From Brevundimonas sp. Root608 (GTDB lineage Bacteria > Pseudomonadota > Alphaproteobacteria > Caulobacterales > Caulobacteraceae): 64,000 nucleotides of DNA. The notes below the pieces were generated by a model, which was given only the letters and a program-made list of their open reading frames with translations, made no database searches and was not told the origin of the DNA. The stretch covers positions 62,001-126,000 of the forward strand of contig NZ_LMGT01000001.1 of the NCBI RefSeq assembly GCF_001427825.1, written 5' to 3'. Position numbers and translations under genes: made by a program. Positions 44,918-52,415 of the stretch are shown piece by piece. Every line of letters begins with the position of its first letter. Position 1 is the first letter of the stretch.

Positions 44918-46621
<1,704 letters not shown>

Positions 46622-46656
46622 TCCGGTCGTTCAGCGGTTCAAGCTGATACAGAAGA

Positions 46657-46688
46657 GGGCGGGTCCGGTGACGGGCCCGCCCTTTTTT
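46657..46688 (+). terminator. groESL terminator
   Basis: GGGCGGGTCC (46657-46666) pairs with GGGCCCGCCC (46673-46682) with one G-T pair, followed by six T residues. It marks the end of the core region before the lower-GC defence genes. Confidence 0.9.
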
Positions 46689-46852
46689 GGTGGCCGTTGA
46701 TGTTCGTTGCCAGCGGCAGGTGTTGGCTGAAGGCACGATGCAGTCGGCCTGAGTTGCGATCGTTGTTCCCGGTTGTATGGCCAGTATGCTACCGGCGCGC
46801 AGCGCGCGTCGGGCGGCTCTGGACGATCAAGCCTGACTGCGGGGGGTCTACG

Positions 46853-47815
46853 ATGAAATTCGCCTATGAGGATTTGAGTGAGGATCAGTTTGAGCGACTG
46901 ATTGTCCTACTTTGTCAGCGGTTGTTGGGCGTCTCTGTGAAGGGCTTCGCCAAGGGGCCTGACGGCGGCCGGGATGCCAAATTCGTGGGTACGGCGGAGT
47001 TGCATCCGAGCAAAGCTGCGCCATGGGTCGGAACGACCGTTGTCCAAGCCAAACACACCAATGGGTATAACCGCCATTTCGGCGAGGCCGATTTTTACAG
47101 CCCGACCGCCAAAGACACGGTGATTGGAAAGGAGGTCCCGCGGATCATTAAGCTCCGCGAGGCGAAGCAGCTCGACCACTATATGCTGTTTGCCAACCGC
47201 CGGCTCGCGGGCAATGCCGACCAGAACATCACCAAGTATATCGCTGAGACGTGCGGCCTTCCCGAAGGGTCGATTTATCTCTGCGGCGTGGAGCAGCTGG
47301 AGCTCTATCTGAAGCAGTTTCCTGAGGTGGCGGCTCTCGCCGACTTGGATCCCGTCGACTCCCCATTGATTGTGTCGCCCGACGAACTCGCCATCGTTGT
47401 CGAAGCGATTGCGAGTCATGACGCCGATCTGTCGGCTGTGCTCGATGCGCCGCCGAGTGAGCGGACCTCGTACGAGGAAAAGAACGACTTGAACAACATG
47501 ACCGCCGACTATGCGGCGGCTTTGCGCAGGCGATATCTGAAGGACACCGCGCAAATCCGGGCGTTCCTGGCCGCGCCCGAGAATCTTGAAATTCTCAAGT
47601 CCTACGAGGCGACTGCCGAGGAGTTCCAGATGAAGATCATCTCGAAGCGGAAAGCCTTCCAAAATTTCGACGCGGTCATGGAGTATCTGCTTGATCTTCT
47701 CTTCCAGCGGGACCCAATCTTGCGGCAGCGTCAGCACAAGCGTCTGACCCGCGCGGTGCTTTTTTACATGTACTGGAACTGCGACATCGGGGAGGTGGCG
47801 AATGTTGAGGCCTAG
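46853..47815 (+). CDS. ABC-3C system effector: Mrr-like PD-(D/E)xK nuclease domain protein
   Basis: The 320-residue protein (start MKFAYEDLSEDQFERLIVLL) has an N-terminal restriction-endonuclease-like domain: E14 in DQFERL, the acidic GPDGGRDAKF (35-44) and the QxK of VVQAKH (63-68) follow the Mrr-type E...D...QxK pattern. The middle (about 85-150) continues this domain; the C-terminal half is helical, with a conserved-looking YTSYEEKNDLNNMT-like segment. Similar proteins are encoded in ABC-three-component systems, where the nuclease is thought to be the effector. The gene overlaps the next by 14 bases. Base composition is less GC-rich than the neighbours. Confidence 0.8.
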   Translation: MKFAYEDLSEDQFERLIVLLCQRLLGVSVKGFAKGPDGGRDAKFVGTAELHPSKAAPWVGTTVVQAKHTNGYNRHFGEADFYSPTAKDTVIGKEVPRIIKLREAKQLDHYMLFANRRLAGNADQNITKYIAETCGLPEGSIYLCGVEQLELYLKQFPEVAALADLDPVDSPLIVSPDELAIVVEAIASHDADLSAVLDAPPSERTSYEEKNDLNNMTADYAAALRRRYLKDTAQIRAFLAAPENLEILKSYEATAEEFQMKIISKRKAFQNFDAVMEYLLDLLFQRDPILRQRQHKRLTRAVLFYMYWNCDIGEVANVEA

Positions 47816-48050
47816 CAAACACGCCCACCCCGACCGCACCGTCGTCAATGTCGCCTTGGTTCTCTTGGCCCGCCTACGTTCGCAGCGACTCTGTGATTAT
47901 GGGATGCTGTTTAAGTACGCGCGCAAATCAGTAACTGGTGGTGACGTGTTGTTCCTGCCCTCACTAAATTTCCTGTTCCTACTTGGTCTAATCGAATACC
48001 ATCCCAAGACAGACGCCGTCGAATATGTGGGCCAGAATGAAGCCGTCTAA
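47802..48050 (+). CDS. ABC-3C middle component
   Basis: The 82-residue protein starts MLRPSKHAHPDRTVVNVALV. Its winged-helix-like pattern, LARLRSQRLCDYGMLFKYARK then FLPSLNFLFLLGLIEYHPKTD, fits the small middle components of ABC-three-component systems, which link the ATPase to its effector. It begins 14 bases inside the nuclease gene and ends 14 bases inside the ATPase gene, so all three are translationally coupled in the order effector, middle component, ATPase. Confidence 0.75.
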   Translation: MLRPSKHAHPDRTVVNVALVLLARLRSQRLCDYGMLFKYARKSVTGGDVLFLPSLNFLFLLGLIEYHPKTDAVEYVGQNEAV

Positions 48051-49830
48051 GCTTTATTCCGATCAGCCGACGGTTTTCGTTCCGGTGGAATTCGAGCCCG
48101 AATTCAACGTGGTGCTCGCCGAAATCCGCGTGCCGGAGAACCGTGACCGCGACACACACAATTTGGGCAAGACGACCCTGGGCCGGCTTCTCGATTTCGG
48201 CTTTCTGGCCGGGCGCGACGCCAAATTCTTCCTGTTCAAACATCTCGATCGCTTTGAAGATTTCACATTCTTCCTTGAGATCGAGCTGCCCGACGGAAGC
48301 TATGTAACCGTGCGTCGCAGCGTCGCCGAAGCCTCAAAGATCGCCTTCAAGAAGCACACGGGTCGGCATCAAGATTTCACGACTCTGCCTGACCGAGACT
48401 GGGATCACATTGACGTTCCCTTCGATCGCGCCAAGGAATTGCTCGACAGTCTTCTCGACTGGCGGGCGCTAAAACCGTGGCGCTACCGAAAAGGACTCGG
48501 TTATTTCATTCGATCGCAGGAGGACTTCCGCGACGTTTTCCACCTGCGCAAGTTTGCGAATTCCCACGCCGACTGGAAGCCTTTCCTTGCTCATATTCTC
48601 GGCTTCAACGCCGATCTGATCACCCAACACTATGCCAAGGAGGACGAGCTTAGGGAGAAGGAGCACAAGGCCACGACCATCCGCCAGGAGCTTGGCGGCG
48701 AGATCGAGGACGCCGGAAAGATTGATGGCCTTCTACTTCTGAAGCGACAGGAGGTCAGCAGGAAGCAGGAATTGCTCGATGCTTTCGATTTCCGAACCCA
48801 AGACAAGGCGGACACCAAGCAGCTTGTGGATCAGGTCGACGAACGTATCGCGGACCTTAATCAGCGCCGGTACTCCCTCACTCAAAATCGAAAAAAGGTT
48901 ATCAGCTCTCTCGAAGAGGATCAGATACTTTTCGACCCGGAAGATGCGCGGGTTCTTTTCCGCGAAGCCGGAGTTCTCTTTGATGGGCAGATCAAACGCG
49001 ATTTTCAGCAGTTGATCGCATTCAACAAGGCGATCACTGAGGAACGCCGGGTCTATCTCGTCGAAGAGCGCGAGGAGATCGAGGCGGAACTCAAGGTAAT
49101 AAATGCTGAGCTGAACGCGCTGGGTAAGCGTCGATCCGAGATGCTGGCTTTCCTCAGCAGCACGGACTCCTTCGCCAAATACAAGCACCTATCGGGTGAG
49201 ATGGTGACGTTGCGAGCTGATATCGAAGGCCTCGAACGTCAGCGGGAGTTCGTGCATCGGCTTCAGCAATTGCGGGCTGATATTCGTACTTTGGCCGAGG
49301 AGAAAAGCCACCTACAGGCCGCAATCGAGGCCGACGTTGAGGCAAAGAACGCGGATAGCGACAGCCTGTTCTCGCGCATCCGTTTGTTCTTCAACGAAAT
49401 CGTTGAGGACGTAATCGATCACAAGGCGCTCCTGAGCGTCGTGGTCAATCAGCAGGGACACCTCGATTTCCGGGCGGAATTGCTTGATGATGCCGGGGTG
49501 GCGACGAGCGCTGATCGTGGGTTCAGCTACAAGAAGTTGTTGTGCGTCGCATTCGATCTGTCGCTGCTTCGCGCGCATCTGGATGACGCATTTCCTCGCT
49601 TCGCGTTCCACGACGGGGTGCTGGAATCGCTCGATGACCGAAAGAAGGAAAACCTCTTGGGGGTCATCCGAAGCTACACCGCGCTGGGCCTGCAATCGAT
49701 CATAACTCTGATCGACTCAGACCTTCCCCCGCGCAGTGATGAGGATCCGGTGTTTGAACCGTCCGATATCGTCGTGCGTCTCCATGACGTGGGGGACGAC
49801 GGTCGACTATTCAGGATGAAAGCTTGGTAG
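48037..49830 (+). CDS. ABC-3C system ATPase, DUF2326 family
   Basis: SMC/RecF-like ABC ATPase of 597 residues from ATG 48037. The P-loop is shortened, D-T-H-N-L-G-K-T-T at about 39-47, followed by LGRLLDFGFL, as in DUF2326 proteins. A long coiled coil occupies roughly residues 205-430. The C-terminal lobe carries GFSYKKLLCVAFDLSLL, in the position of the ABC signature, and a Walker B-like FAFHDGVLES with D526. DUF2326 ATPases define one branch of ABC-three-component conflict systems (Krishnan, Burroughs, Iyer and Aravind). Last gene of the operon. Confidence 0.85.
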   Translation: MKPSKLYSDQPTVFVPVEFEPEFNVVLAEIRVPENRDRDTHNLGKTTLGRLLDFGFLAGRDAKFFLFKHLDRFEDFTFFLEIELPDGSYVTVRRSVAEASKIAFKKHTGRHQDFTTLPDRDWDHIDVPFDRAKELLDSLLDWRALKPWRYRKGLGYFIRSQEDFRDVFHLRKFANSHADWKPFLAHILGFNADLITQHYAKEDELREKEHKATTIRQELGGEIEDAGKIDGLLLLKRQEVSRKQELLDAFDFRTQDKADTKQLVDQVDERIADLNQRRYSLTQNRKKVISSLEEDQILFDPEDARVLFREAGVLFDGQIKRDFQQLIAFNKAITEERRVYLVEEREEIEAELKVINAELNALGKRRSEMLAFLSSTDSFAKYKHLSGEMVTLRADIEGLERQREFVHRLQQLRADIRTLAEEKSHLQAAIEADVEAKNADSDSLFSRIRLFFNEIVEDVIDHKALLSVVVNQQGHLDFRAELLDDAGVATSADRGFSYKKLLCVAFDLSLLRAHLDDAFPRFAFHDGVLESLDDRKKENLLGVIRSYTALGLQSIITLIDSDLPPRSDEDPVFEPSDIVVRLHDVGDDGRLFRMKAW

Positions 49831-50171: not shown

Positions 50172-50900
50172 ATGGCGCCAGACTCTCCGGTCCATGAAAC
50201 GGATCAGGGGCGCAGGGTGGCGGACGAAATCAGGGGCGAAATCGGAAACGGGGCGGACGGCGCGGTCGTGCGGCGGCCGCGCGTGCGGGGGCATGTGAAG
50301 CTGGGGACGCGGATGTGGGCGCGCATCCAGCGGGAGTTCGCGGCGGGGGCCTCGGTCCCCTGGCTGTCGGCGCGGTACGGGGCGGGCGAGCGGACCATCG
50401 GCTTCCGGGCGAAGAAGGAGGGCTGGCGACGCAAGGACCTGGCCGAGGCGGCCGACGCCGAGCTGGAGGCGGCCGAGGTGCGCGGGGATGCGGACCCGGT
50501 CGCGGGGCCGGCGATCGGGGCGGGGCTGGGGCTGGACGGCTCGGCGCGGAAGGCGACCGAGGCGTTCGCAGCGGCGCTGGCCGCAGTGGACGATGAGGCG
50601 CGGGACGGGGCGGCGCGCGAGGCGATGAACCGGGCGGTGGCCTGCATGCGGCGCGAGGATGCGCCGGCGGCGATGGGCTGGGCGAAGCTGGCGGCGGCGC
50701 TGGACGGGATGGGGCGGACCGGCGGCGAGGCGGGGGAGGAGATGGATCCGACCCATCCGGGACGGGTGGCGGCGCTGGAGTTTCTGCGGCGGCGGGCGGC
50801 GGACCGGGAGGCGGCGAGGGAGGGGGCCGGGGATGGGGCGTACCCCTCCACCCCTTCGGGGTCCCCCTCCCCATTGCATGGGGAGGAGACGGGTGGGTGA
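50172..50900 (+). CDS. Small terminase-like (gene-transfer-agent gp1-type) protein
   Basis: The 242-residue protein, with a CAGGAG ribosome site before ATG 50172, has a helix-turn-helix segment (MWARIQREFAAGASVPWLSARYGAGERTIGFRAKKEGW, about 50-90) like phage and gene-transfer-agent small terminase subunits, which recognise DNA for packaging. The C-terminal 15-20 residues (PSTPSGSPSPLHGEETGG) are encoded by a palindromic repeat that also runs into terL, so the original C-terminus was probably shorter. No integrase or other phage gene precedes it. Confidence 0.65.
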   Translation: MAPDSPVHETDQGRRVADEIRGEIGNGADGAVVRRPRVRGHVKLGTRMWARIQREFAAGASVPWLSARYGAGERTIGFRAKKEGWRRKDLAEAADAELEAAEVRGDADPVAGPAIGAGLGLDGSARKATEAFAAALAAVDDEARDGAAREAMNRAVACMRREDAPAAMGWAKLAAALDGMGRTGGEAGEEMDPTHPGRVAALEFLRRRAADREAAREGAGDGAYPSTPSGSPSPLHGEETGG

Positions 50901-50943
50901 GGCTCCGCCGACCCTTCCTCCACCCCATGAAGGGGAGGGAGAG
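50862..50943. repeat. Palindromic repeat element, copy 1, at the terS/terL junction
   Basis: CCTCCCC-ATTGC-ATGGGGAGG near its left end and CACCCCATGAAGGGGAGGG near its right end form nested hairpins. The right end is nearly identical to that of copy 2 (51684-51807). The element supplies the terS C-terminal codons and the GGGAGGGAGAGG just before the terL GTG, so it doubles as the terL ribosome-binding site. Confidence 0.7.
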
Positions 50944-50946
50944 GAT

Positions 50947-52332
50947 GTGTACCGGTGGCTGACGGAGGACGAGTTCGCGCGCGAGCTCTGGCGGGAGGAC
51001 GCGCACGAGGGGCAGCTGCCGGAGACGGACCCGTGGCGCACCTGGGTCTTCCTCGGCGGGCGCGGGGCGGGGAAGACGCGGGCGGGGGCGGAGTGGGTGT
51101 GGGAGACGGCGCAGAGGCTGGGAAAGGGCGGGCGGATCGCGCTGGTGGGGCCGACGATAAGGGATGCGCGGACGGTGATGGTCGAGGGGCCGTCGGGGGT
51201 GATGAACCTGCCGTTCCGGACGGGGGCGGCGTTCGCCTCGTCGCTGAGGCAGGTGAGCTTTCCGGGCGGGGCCGTGGGGCTGCTGTTCTCGGCCGAGGAG
51301 CCGGAGCGGCTGCGCGGGCCGCAGTTCCATGCGGCCTGGGGGGACGAGTTCTGCGCCTGGTCCTATGGCGCGGAGACGCTGGCGATGCTGCGGCTGGGGC
51401 TGAGGCTGGGGGAGGGTCCGAGGCTGGTTCTGACGTCCACGCCGAAGCCGGGGCGGGTGTTGCGCGGGGTGCTGGCGGAGGACGGCTGCGCGCGGACGGA
51501 TGCGCCGACGCGCGCCAATGCGGGGAACCTCGCGCCGGGATTCCTGGCGGCGATGGAGGGGCTGTACGGCGGGACGCGGCGGGCGGCGCAGGAGCTGGAC
51601 GGGCGGGTGCTGGAGGATGAGGGGGCGCTTTTCACGCTCGCGGAGATCGAGAGGGCGCGGGCGGGGTGGGGGCTGCTTTCGCATTCTCCCTCCCCCGAAG
51701 TGGGGAGGGACGGCGGAGCGAAGCGAAGCCCGGGTGGGGAAGTTCAGACGTACCCCACCCTGTCGTCGCTGCGCGCCGACATCCCTCCCCATGAAGGGGA
51801 GGGAGAACGCGTTTCTCCTGTCTTTGACAAGGTCGTGGTGGCCGTCGATCCGCCGGCGGGGACGCTGTCGGGGCGGGCGCGGGATGCGTGCGGGATCGTG
51901 GTGGCCGGGCGGCGCGGGGACCGGGTCGGGGTGCTGGCGGACTGGACGGCGCAGGGGCTGTCGCCCGAGGGCTGGGCCGAGCGGGTGCGGCGGGCGGTGG
52001 AGGCGTACGGGGCGCGGCGGGTGGTGGTCGAGAGCAACAACGGCGGGGCGATGGCGGAGGCGGTGCTGAAGGCCTCGGGGCTGTCGGTCGCGGTGAAGCG
52101 GGTGCATGCGTCGGTGGGCAAGGTCGCGCGGGCCGAGCCGGTGGCGGCGCTGTACGAGCAGGGGCGGGTGGCGCACGCGCCGGGGCTGGAGGCGCTGGAG
52201 GAGGAGCTGATGGGGCTGGGCGGCGAGGACGCGGGCGGGGCCAGTCCCGACCGGGCCGACGCCCTGGTCTGGGCGGTGACCGATCTGCTGCCGGCGCCGG
52301 GGGCGAGGGGACCGTCGCTGCGGGTGCTTTAG
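50947..52332 (+). CDS. Large terminase subunit, gene-transfer-agent type, with inserted palindromic element
   Basis: DNA-packaging motor ATPase/nuclease of 461 residues. Walker A is GGRGAGKT (37-44) and Walker B WGDE (about 132-134). The RNase H-like nuclease acids appear in VVVAVDPPAG, VVVESNNGG and SPDRADALVW. Residues about 246-287 (SPSPEVGRDGG onward to HEGEGER) come from an in-frame palindromic repeat. I take GTG 50947 as start because GGGAGGGAGAGG lies directly before it; ATG 50878 is an alternative. No portal, capsid or tail gene follows. Confidence 0.85.
   Translation: MYRWLTEDEFARELWREDAHEGQLPETDPWRTWVFLGGRGAGKTRAGAEWVWETAQRLGKGGRIALVGPTIRDARTVMVEGPSGVMNLPFRTGAAFASSLRQVSFPGGAVGLLFSAEEPERLRGPQFHAAWGDEFCAWSYGAETLAMLRLGLRLGEGPRLVLTSTPKPGRVLRGVLAEDGCARTDAPTRANAGNLAPGFLAAMEGLYGGTRRAAQELDGRVLEDEGALFTLAEIERARAGWGLLSHSPSPEVGRDGGAKRSPGGEVQTYPTLSSLRADIPPHEGEGERVSPVFDKVVVAVDPPAGTLSGRARDACGIVVAGRRGDRVGVLADWTAQGLSPEGWAERVRRAVEAYGARRVVVESNNGGAMAEAVLKASGLSVAVKRVHASVGKVARAEPVAALYEQGRVAHAPGLEALEEELMGLGGEDAGGASPDRADALVWAVTDLLPAPGARGPSLRVL
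51684..51807. repeat. Palindromic repeat element, copy 2, inserted inside terL
   Basis: The 124-base element has perfect 12-base terminal inverted repeats, TTCTCCCTCCCC (51684-51695) and GGGGAGGGAGAA (51796-51807), and an internal GGGTGGGG/CCCCACCC pair. It is read through in the terL frame without a stop. It belongs to the same family as copy 1. Such coding-region palindromes recall Rickettsia palindromic elements. Confidence 0.8.
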
Positions 52333-52415
52333 GCGGGCGAAAAGGGCGGGCAACCGTTTGACGGGCGCGGCGTTCCAGCCGATTACAATGGCTGCGCTTC
52401 AGGGGGCGAGGGGCT

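Follow-up and report, generated by a model that had tools for sequence, protein, structure and literature searches.

Palindromic repeats read in frame within genes are best known from Rickettsia, whose genomes are small and decaying, and the Rickettsia palindromic elements (RPEs) have equivalents in Wolbachia. RPEs are palindromes of 105–146 bp with terminal inverted repeats of ~12 bp, found between genes as well as in frame in genes for conserved proteins; for at least one enzyme, Gmk, the product of the gene carrying the insertion is active (PMC2229807). The Caulobacter CcrM-associated intergenic repeats (CIRs) of Caulobacter and its relatives are ~110 bp long and consist of two-arm inverted repeats (PMC2229807). 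Enterobacterial RU/ERIC and Coxiella QMITE are small repeats with open frames that occur within genes, QMITE sometimes in frame (PMC2759123, PMC5896051). Here, we analyzed a 64,000-nucleotide stretch of the Brevundimonas sp. Root608 genome (hereafter the window, to which plain coordinates refer), in which the gene for a large terminase subunit (terL) contains, in frame, a 124 bp palindromic element of a dispersed repeat family that we call S. Other Brevundimonas TerLs carry unrelated palindromes at the same linker, and two further conserved proteins show the same pattern. Our explanation, which we hold to be very probable, is that non-autonomous palindromes land widely and that, where they fall within genes, the copies that persist are those in frame in one of a few permissive loops, where they would serve as disordered spacers. 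Among the literature matches listed, and within the portions of those sources available, none was found to report palindromes within Brevundimonas coding sequence, or sites shared by several families.

A dispersed palindrome in the TerL linker

The element lies at 51684–51807 on the + strand (124 bp), where it corresponds to about 41 TerL residues. It is bounded by perfect 12-nt terminal inverted repeats, TTCTCCCTCCCC on the left (51684–51695, +) and GGGGAGGGAGAA on the right (51796–51807, +), and 16-nt arms at its ends (51680–51695 and 51796–51811) are 94% complementary. An inner palindrome (51701–51791, no strand assigned) has 39-nt arms (51701–51739 and 51753–51791) that are 82% complementary. 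The fold of the element gave a z-score of −8.76, none of 200 shuffles folding equally well, which rules out a chance palindrome. An Rfam search over 50700–52400 returned no match reaching the gathering score; sub-gathering matches to miRNA and sRNA families were taken as chance.

The terL frame is stop-free across the entire element. Counting from the GTG codon at 50947, the element would encode TerL residues 246–287, which fall between the ATPase domain (Pfam Terminase_6N, P0001 131–331; 51049–51651, +) and the nuclease domain (Pfam Terminase_6C, P0001 395–540; 51841–52278, +). The length, termini, open frame and interdomain position all agree with the original prediction, which had been made from the DNA letters. 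That prediction also called for a comparison with homologues: close relatives lack these residues at the linker, and none of the TerLs examined showed the counter-case it feared, in which homologues have the same residues but no palindromic DNA. A structural model of TerL (61 sequences) had a mean pLDDT of 87.6 with both domains well modelled, and five model blocks over residues 241–290, insert included, scored 45–64.

The element is a repeat. At E ≤ 1, searching the Root608 genome (2.79 Mb in 11 contigs) produced 93 match rows, a count that includes both strands and sub-matches, and 31 near-full copies were examined (L001–L027, L286–L289). According to a codon model trained on the window genes, two of these 31 lie inside a run-through coding frame, namely those in both terL paralogues, which answers the prediction's suggestion to look for other intragenic copies. 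By reading, many of the remaining copies listed lie just downstream of a stop codon. Seven short matches were also scored; L295 and L297 lie in frames that span them, but at 22–23 nt and E 0.02–0.09 they were not counted as copies. Four of the 31, that of the paralogue included, failed end refinement and were left out of the length, GANTC and flank tests. The 27 refined copies measure 112–148 bp, and 67% of the six reading frames across them are stop-free. Among relatives, S matches at E ≤ 0.001 were present in 27 of 61 genomes and 2 of 11 genera, the Root608 genome included.

Orphan TerLs carry inserts at two loops

The best named relatives of the window TerL belong to Brevundimonas (B. alba, B. 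lenta, B. bullata and others). We searched 121 genomes of the genus, 114 of which gave a match and 104 of which are represented; best rows were taken, and weak TerLs may be missed. The resulting set holds 132 intact frames from the 104 genomes, together with three broken or partial ones (L073, L087 and L358). L064, L073 and L087 were dropped from one step for having no single frame, L064 being counted as full in the final set; L060 and L082 were left out of one TerL tree, L082 (221 residues) being counted as a clade-B row without insert. The frames fall into orphan clade A (25), orphan clade B (23) and a remainder, G, of the type associated with gene transfer agents (GTAs; 84). Within the stretch examined, a portal gene was seen downstream of 72 of the 84 G frames and of none of the 48 in A and B, for some of which the downstream stretch was <1.5 kb. 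In the midpoint-rooted tree G does not form one clade, and for 12 of the 84 no portal was in view.

Inserts, defined as ≥12 residues and scored over a 380-column TerL core, were found at only two loops: site 1, after LRLGE and before the strand PRLVxTT, and site 2, the ATPase–nuclease linker. At least one was present in 31 of 48 orphans (24 at site 2, 20 at site 1) versus 0 of 84 in G (Fisher p = 2.9e-18, uncorrected for relatedness); sorted by portal status, inserts occur in 31 of 60 TerLs without a portal versus 0 of 72 with one. In the window gene, site 1 is the RLGEGP loop (51403–51420, +), which is empty here and filled in 20/48 orphan relatives. Beyond the genus sample we compared a further 157 relatives, 155 of them distinct, drawn from genome and viral contigs (L127, L143 and L193 dropped). 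Inserts were present in 4 of 77 TerLs from other genomes, all of them Brevundimonas orphans already counted, and in 0 of 80 viral TerLs. A candidate third hot spot upstream of terL was not supported: perfect 10-nt inverted repeats occurred there in 8/43 orphans and 5/81 GTA-type genes, with 6/43 and 4/81 in controls.

Relative to these relatives, the window element is an insertion. The two Root608 TerLs sit in separate parts of clade B. Near relatives of the window gene are empty at the linker (L067, L093) or hold a REP palindrome (L090), while the paralogue (L065, at the place of L023) has an S copy in the same linker and empty neighbours (L058, L103, L104).

Insertion has also recurred. By Fitch counting on the tree, presence changes a minimum of 14 times at site 2 (22 times when the families are taken as character states) and 11 times at site 1. 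Site-2 inserts have a median fold z-score of −5.5, and 17 of 23 lie below −2, compared with 11 of 142 control windows. By our reading at least six palindrome types occur at site 2; the assignment is our own because Blast linking merges several of them through common short GC-rich arms. They are S, the CCCTCCCC type present in the window; F, CTTCTCCCC...GGATGAGGGG; a short REP, GCTACCGCCCTTCGGGCTACTTGAGC; V, CCCCTCCACC...GGTCCCCCTCCCC; tandem-arm palindromes (GGGAGTAGG, GAGTGGC and GAGGGGCGA); and Q, the CGCGGGGATGA type. F is dispersed in its own genomes, with 55, 47 and 15 rows in three of them. The REP is low in copy number (1–6 rows), and the tandem-arm insert tested is likewise scarce, with 6 rows in its genome. 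Pro, Ser, Gly and Glu make up 49% of insert residues versus 27% of the core; the inserted segment is probably translated and would form a disordered spacer rich in these residues.

The same pattern in a helicase and in MurD

Copies of F led to two further host genes, which rules out a phenomenon confined to TerL. In B. alba, 20 F elements were scored (19 stretches), and the two in coding frames lie in terL and in the gene for a helicase that NCBIfam assigns best to TIGR04121, ligase-associated DEXH helicase (below the cut-off for the partial frame). B. lenta, too, has an insert in terL. In Root608, coding frames hold two of the 13 F places: the same helicase (G000:C2:62403-64130, L413) and MurD (TIGR01087, above the cut-off; G000:C6:201513-203030, L446 and L465), each containing an in-frame F palindrome. 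The murD gene is essential in bacteria. For each of the two proteins we took the 30 top loci from 61 genomes. With both flanks present, 18 of 27 helicase loci have an insert at one junction, of type F, V or another, and nine are empty, with 18–27 nt in its place. All 17 helicase inserts scored have z < −2; the insert of L425 contains a stop and that of L439 a run of N. The 29 MurD loci with both flanks comprise 18 with a palindrome, four with a long non-palindromic segment, five with what by eye is a single-hairpin relic (L487, L488, L491, L492 and L494) and two with none. The MurD palindromes are of three types by our reading, F, the GCTCATCCCGGCGAAAGCCGGGACCCAG type and a third, so that the loop filled by F in Root608 takes two other types in relatives. 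The proposal that a GC-rich repeat family can create new coding sequence in this genus thus extends to three genes; in place of its one family there are, by our reading, at least six.

Tolerance as the probable explanation, and its alternatives

Taken together with the spread of S, these data are best explained as follows. A non-autonomous, dispersed repeat of ~112–148 bp would have been inserted, by a mover acting in trans, into the flexible ATPase–nuclease linker of an orphan TerL once this lineage had diverged from the closest relatives sequenced. To survive, an intragenic copy would have to be free of stops, keep the frame and lie in a loop able to tolerate ~40 extra disordered residues. 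Because such loops are few, unrelated families would come to occupy the same places repeatedly: the linker and the ATPase loop of TerL, one junction of the ligase-associated helicase and a single loop of MurD. Tolerance rather than targeting would then be the cause of the hot spots.

Several observations weigh against this explanation. No target-site duplication was found, and the 27 S copies share flanking sequence no more than shuffled flanks do (p = 0.34). Only 8 of 19 site-1 inserts reach z < −2, and six site-2 inserts (L083, L089, L091, L096, L099 and L100) miss that value. The long non-palindromic segments of MurD loci L483–L486 indicate that the loop accepts other sequence too. The insert shares of the helicase and MurD are biased upward, since their loci were chosen as the best matches to a query that itself carries an insert. 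The 31 insert-bearing TerLs count as intact by definition, leaving only two broken insert-bearing orphans for contrast. Finally, evolution tends to be faster in orphan than in GTA TerLs, and relaxed selection may therefore account for some of the tolerance.

Targeting could produce the same hot spots if the loops were docking sites at which a palindrome is exchanged or invaded via palindrome-seeking transposases or hairpin recombination. Unrelated families at identical positions in terL, the helicase gene and murD fit such a process, as do inserts that look composite by eye (e.g., L089 and L098) and the single-hairpin relics of the five MurD loci; in Coxiella, IS1111 is described as favouring a palindromic REP target (PMC5896051). 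However, several empty relatives have short linkers devoid of palindromes, and tolerance predicts sites in loops and domain linkers, which is where they lie. We regard targeting as unlikely. A stronger version, in which a few core-protein loops are fixed coding sockets and unrelated palindromes are actively aimed at them or swapped in them by a dedicated process beyond tolerance, seems to us similarly doubtful; if true, each species could have a different, newly gained disordered segment at one and the same position of an enzyme.

A second alternative is relaxed selection, under which the palindromes would be junk in an orphan terL gene that is itself degenerating. TerL inserts are indeed confined to orphans, with 0/84 in the GTA type. 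NG86 estimates of dN/dS were 0.13–0.53 in 23 orphan pairs, including 0.37 and 0.38 for two pairs with the window gene, and 0.075–0.25 in six GTA TerL pairs. Even so, the ratio is below 1 in 23/23 orphan pairs, so the host gene is under purifying selection, and the Walker A, acidic and nuclease residues that we recognised are invariant in 20 aligned orphans. Reading frames are mostly kept: 31 of 33 insert-bearing orphans are open, and two are broken at the insert. L073, a third terminase paralogue in genome G116, has an S-type linker of 185 nt, a wrong length that puts its nuclease domain out of frame, and L087 has a stop inside its site-1 insert, in an assembly with ambiguous bases. Two broken orphans versus 31 open ones indicate that out-of-frame insertion occurs and seems mostly to be weeded out. 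As murD and the helicase gene show the same pattern, decay is an improbable account.

The insert might instead be kept for a function, for example as an RNA hairpin that paces translation between domains or as a useful spacer. It sits between independently folding domains and is nearly always in frame, but the close relatives L067 and L093 do without it, types, lengths and sequences vary between species, and there are at least 14 presence changes on the tree at site 2; this makes a selected function very improbable. A native linker, a chance palindrome or an assembly artefact has practically no chance of being the explanation, given the repeat family, the fold z-score of −8.8, the empty relatives and the number of genomes in which these sites hold inserts.

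In Brevundimonas, which is GC-rich and largely free-living, three conserved proteins thus have loops that are supplied by more than one unrelated repeat family. Closely related species differ in whether these loops are empty or filled, and the contrast provides a natural experiment on the conversion of DNA repeats into protein and on aimed versus filtered insertion. It also marks loops that seem to take ~40–60 foreign residues.

The host gene and its surroundings

The terL gene (50947–52332, +) belongs to an orphan terS–terL pair that is related to GTA terminases and does not lie in a recognisable prophage. Its likely start is the GTG at 50947, which was chosen from the sequence within an open frame listed from 50659. 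The protein contains the ATPase and RNase-H-like nuclease domains of a large terminase, and its fold matches the D6E, Sf6 and T4 terminases; no meaningful sequence match to solved structures was obtained. A phage origin of the orphan TerL was rejected, as all 198 matched phage records were <60% identical and the 20 listed were 34–40% identical. Upstream lies a likely small terminase subunit gene, terS (50172–50900, +), with a weak PHROG match (phrog_1206, E 0.00095) and no Pfam match; related GC-rich repeat debris spans the terS end and terL start (50845–50945, +), where the S search has a match row at C1:112920–112942. No tRNA was found beside the pair within 30000–64000. Just upstream of terS is an ABC-three component (ABC-3C) gene pair encoding a CTD12 protein and a DUF2326 protein (46622–49830), adjoined by a gene for a chaperonin-family protein (Cpn60_TCP1, E 9e-78; 44918–46615).

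The GTA cluster of Root608 has the order PAS kinase, portal, protease, capsid (G000:C1:704000-716000, L294), and no TerL was found within the 12 kb examined. A GTA TerL query matched only the two orphan TerLs in this genome, and 20 of 37 orphan-bearing genomes lacked a GTA-type TerL among the frames examined. A portal search in 30 chosen genomes gave 29 strong matches, with terL within ≤1.5 kb upstream in four; it may lie farther away in others. In the GTA clusters of many genomes (L111, L113 and L120–L122, among others) the terL–portal gap is ~0.7–3.4 kb, with room for other genes. In Caulobacter crescentus, the terminase gene CCNA_02880 is reported to lie inside the GTA locus, and its deletion in a rogA mutant to abolish the GTA-dependent gain in survival (PMC9632790). 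As the Root608 cluster shows no terL, the orphan terS–terL pair may plausibly serve the GTA in trans, in this and in other Brevundimonas. Genome G116 has retained orphans although it barely matches a portal (E 7e-4), which is evidence against a strict link between orphan and GTA.

Comparison with known systems

The window TerL shares its domains and tree neighbourhood with alphaproteobacterial GTA large terminases; orphan TerLs differ from these in having no portal in view downstream and, in many cases, in carrying palindromes. With regard to the element, S cannot be assigned to the CIRs, which carry GANTC: the window copy has none, and it was found in 2 of 27 S copies, where composition predicts ~10 sites. 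S has the terminal inverted repeats of miniature inverted-repeat transposable elements (MITEs) but shows no target-site duplication in 27 copies, and at 112–148 bp it exceeds the 20–40 bp of a REP palindrome, a size that the GCTACCGCCCTTCGGGCTACTTGAGC insert type does have. RU/ERIC and QMITE also enter genes, and the available portions of their descriptions do not mention repeated use of one position by unrelated families (PMC2759123, PMC5896051). With RPEs, S has in common a palindrome of ~100–150 bp with terminal inverted repeats, and both S and F share with them dispersed copies, some in frame in conserved genes. The Brevundimonas palindromes differ in being GC-rich, in their hosts and in the reuse of a few positions in the same genes by unrelated families across the genus. 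The resemblance to RPEs noted at the outset of this work therefore holds as a comparison of behaviour and not as membership, and in that sense RPEs are the closest analogue of the palindromes described here.
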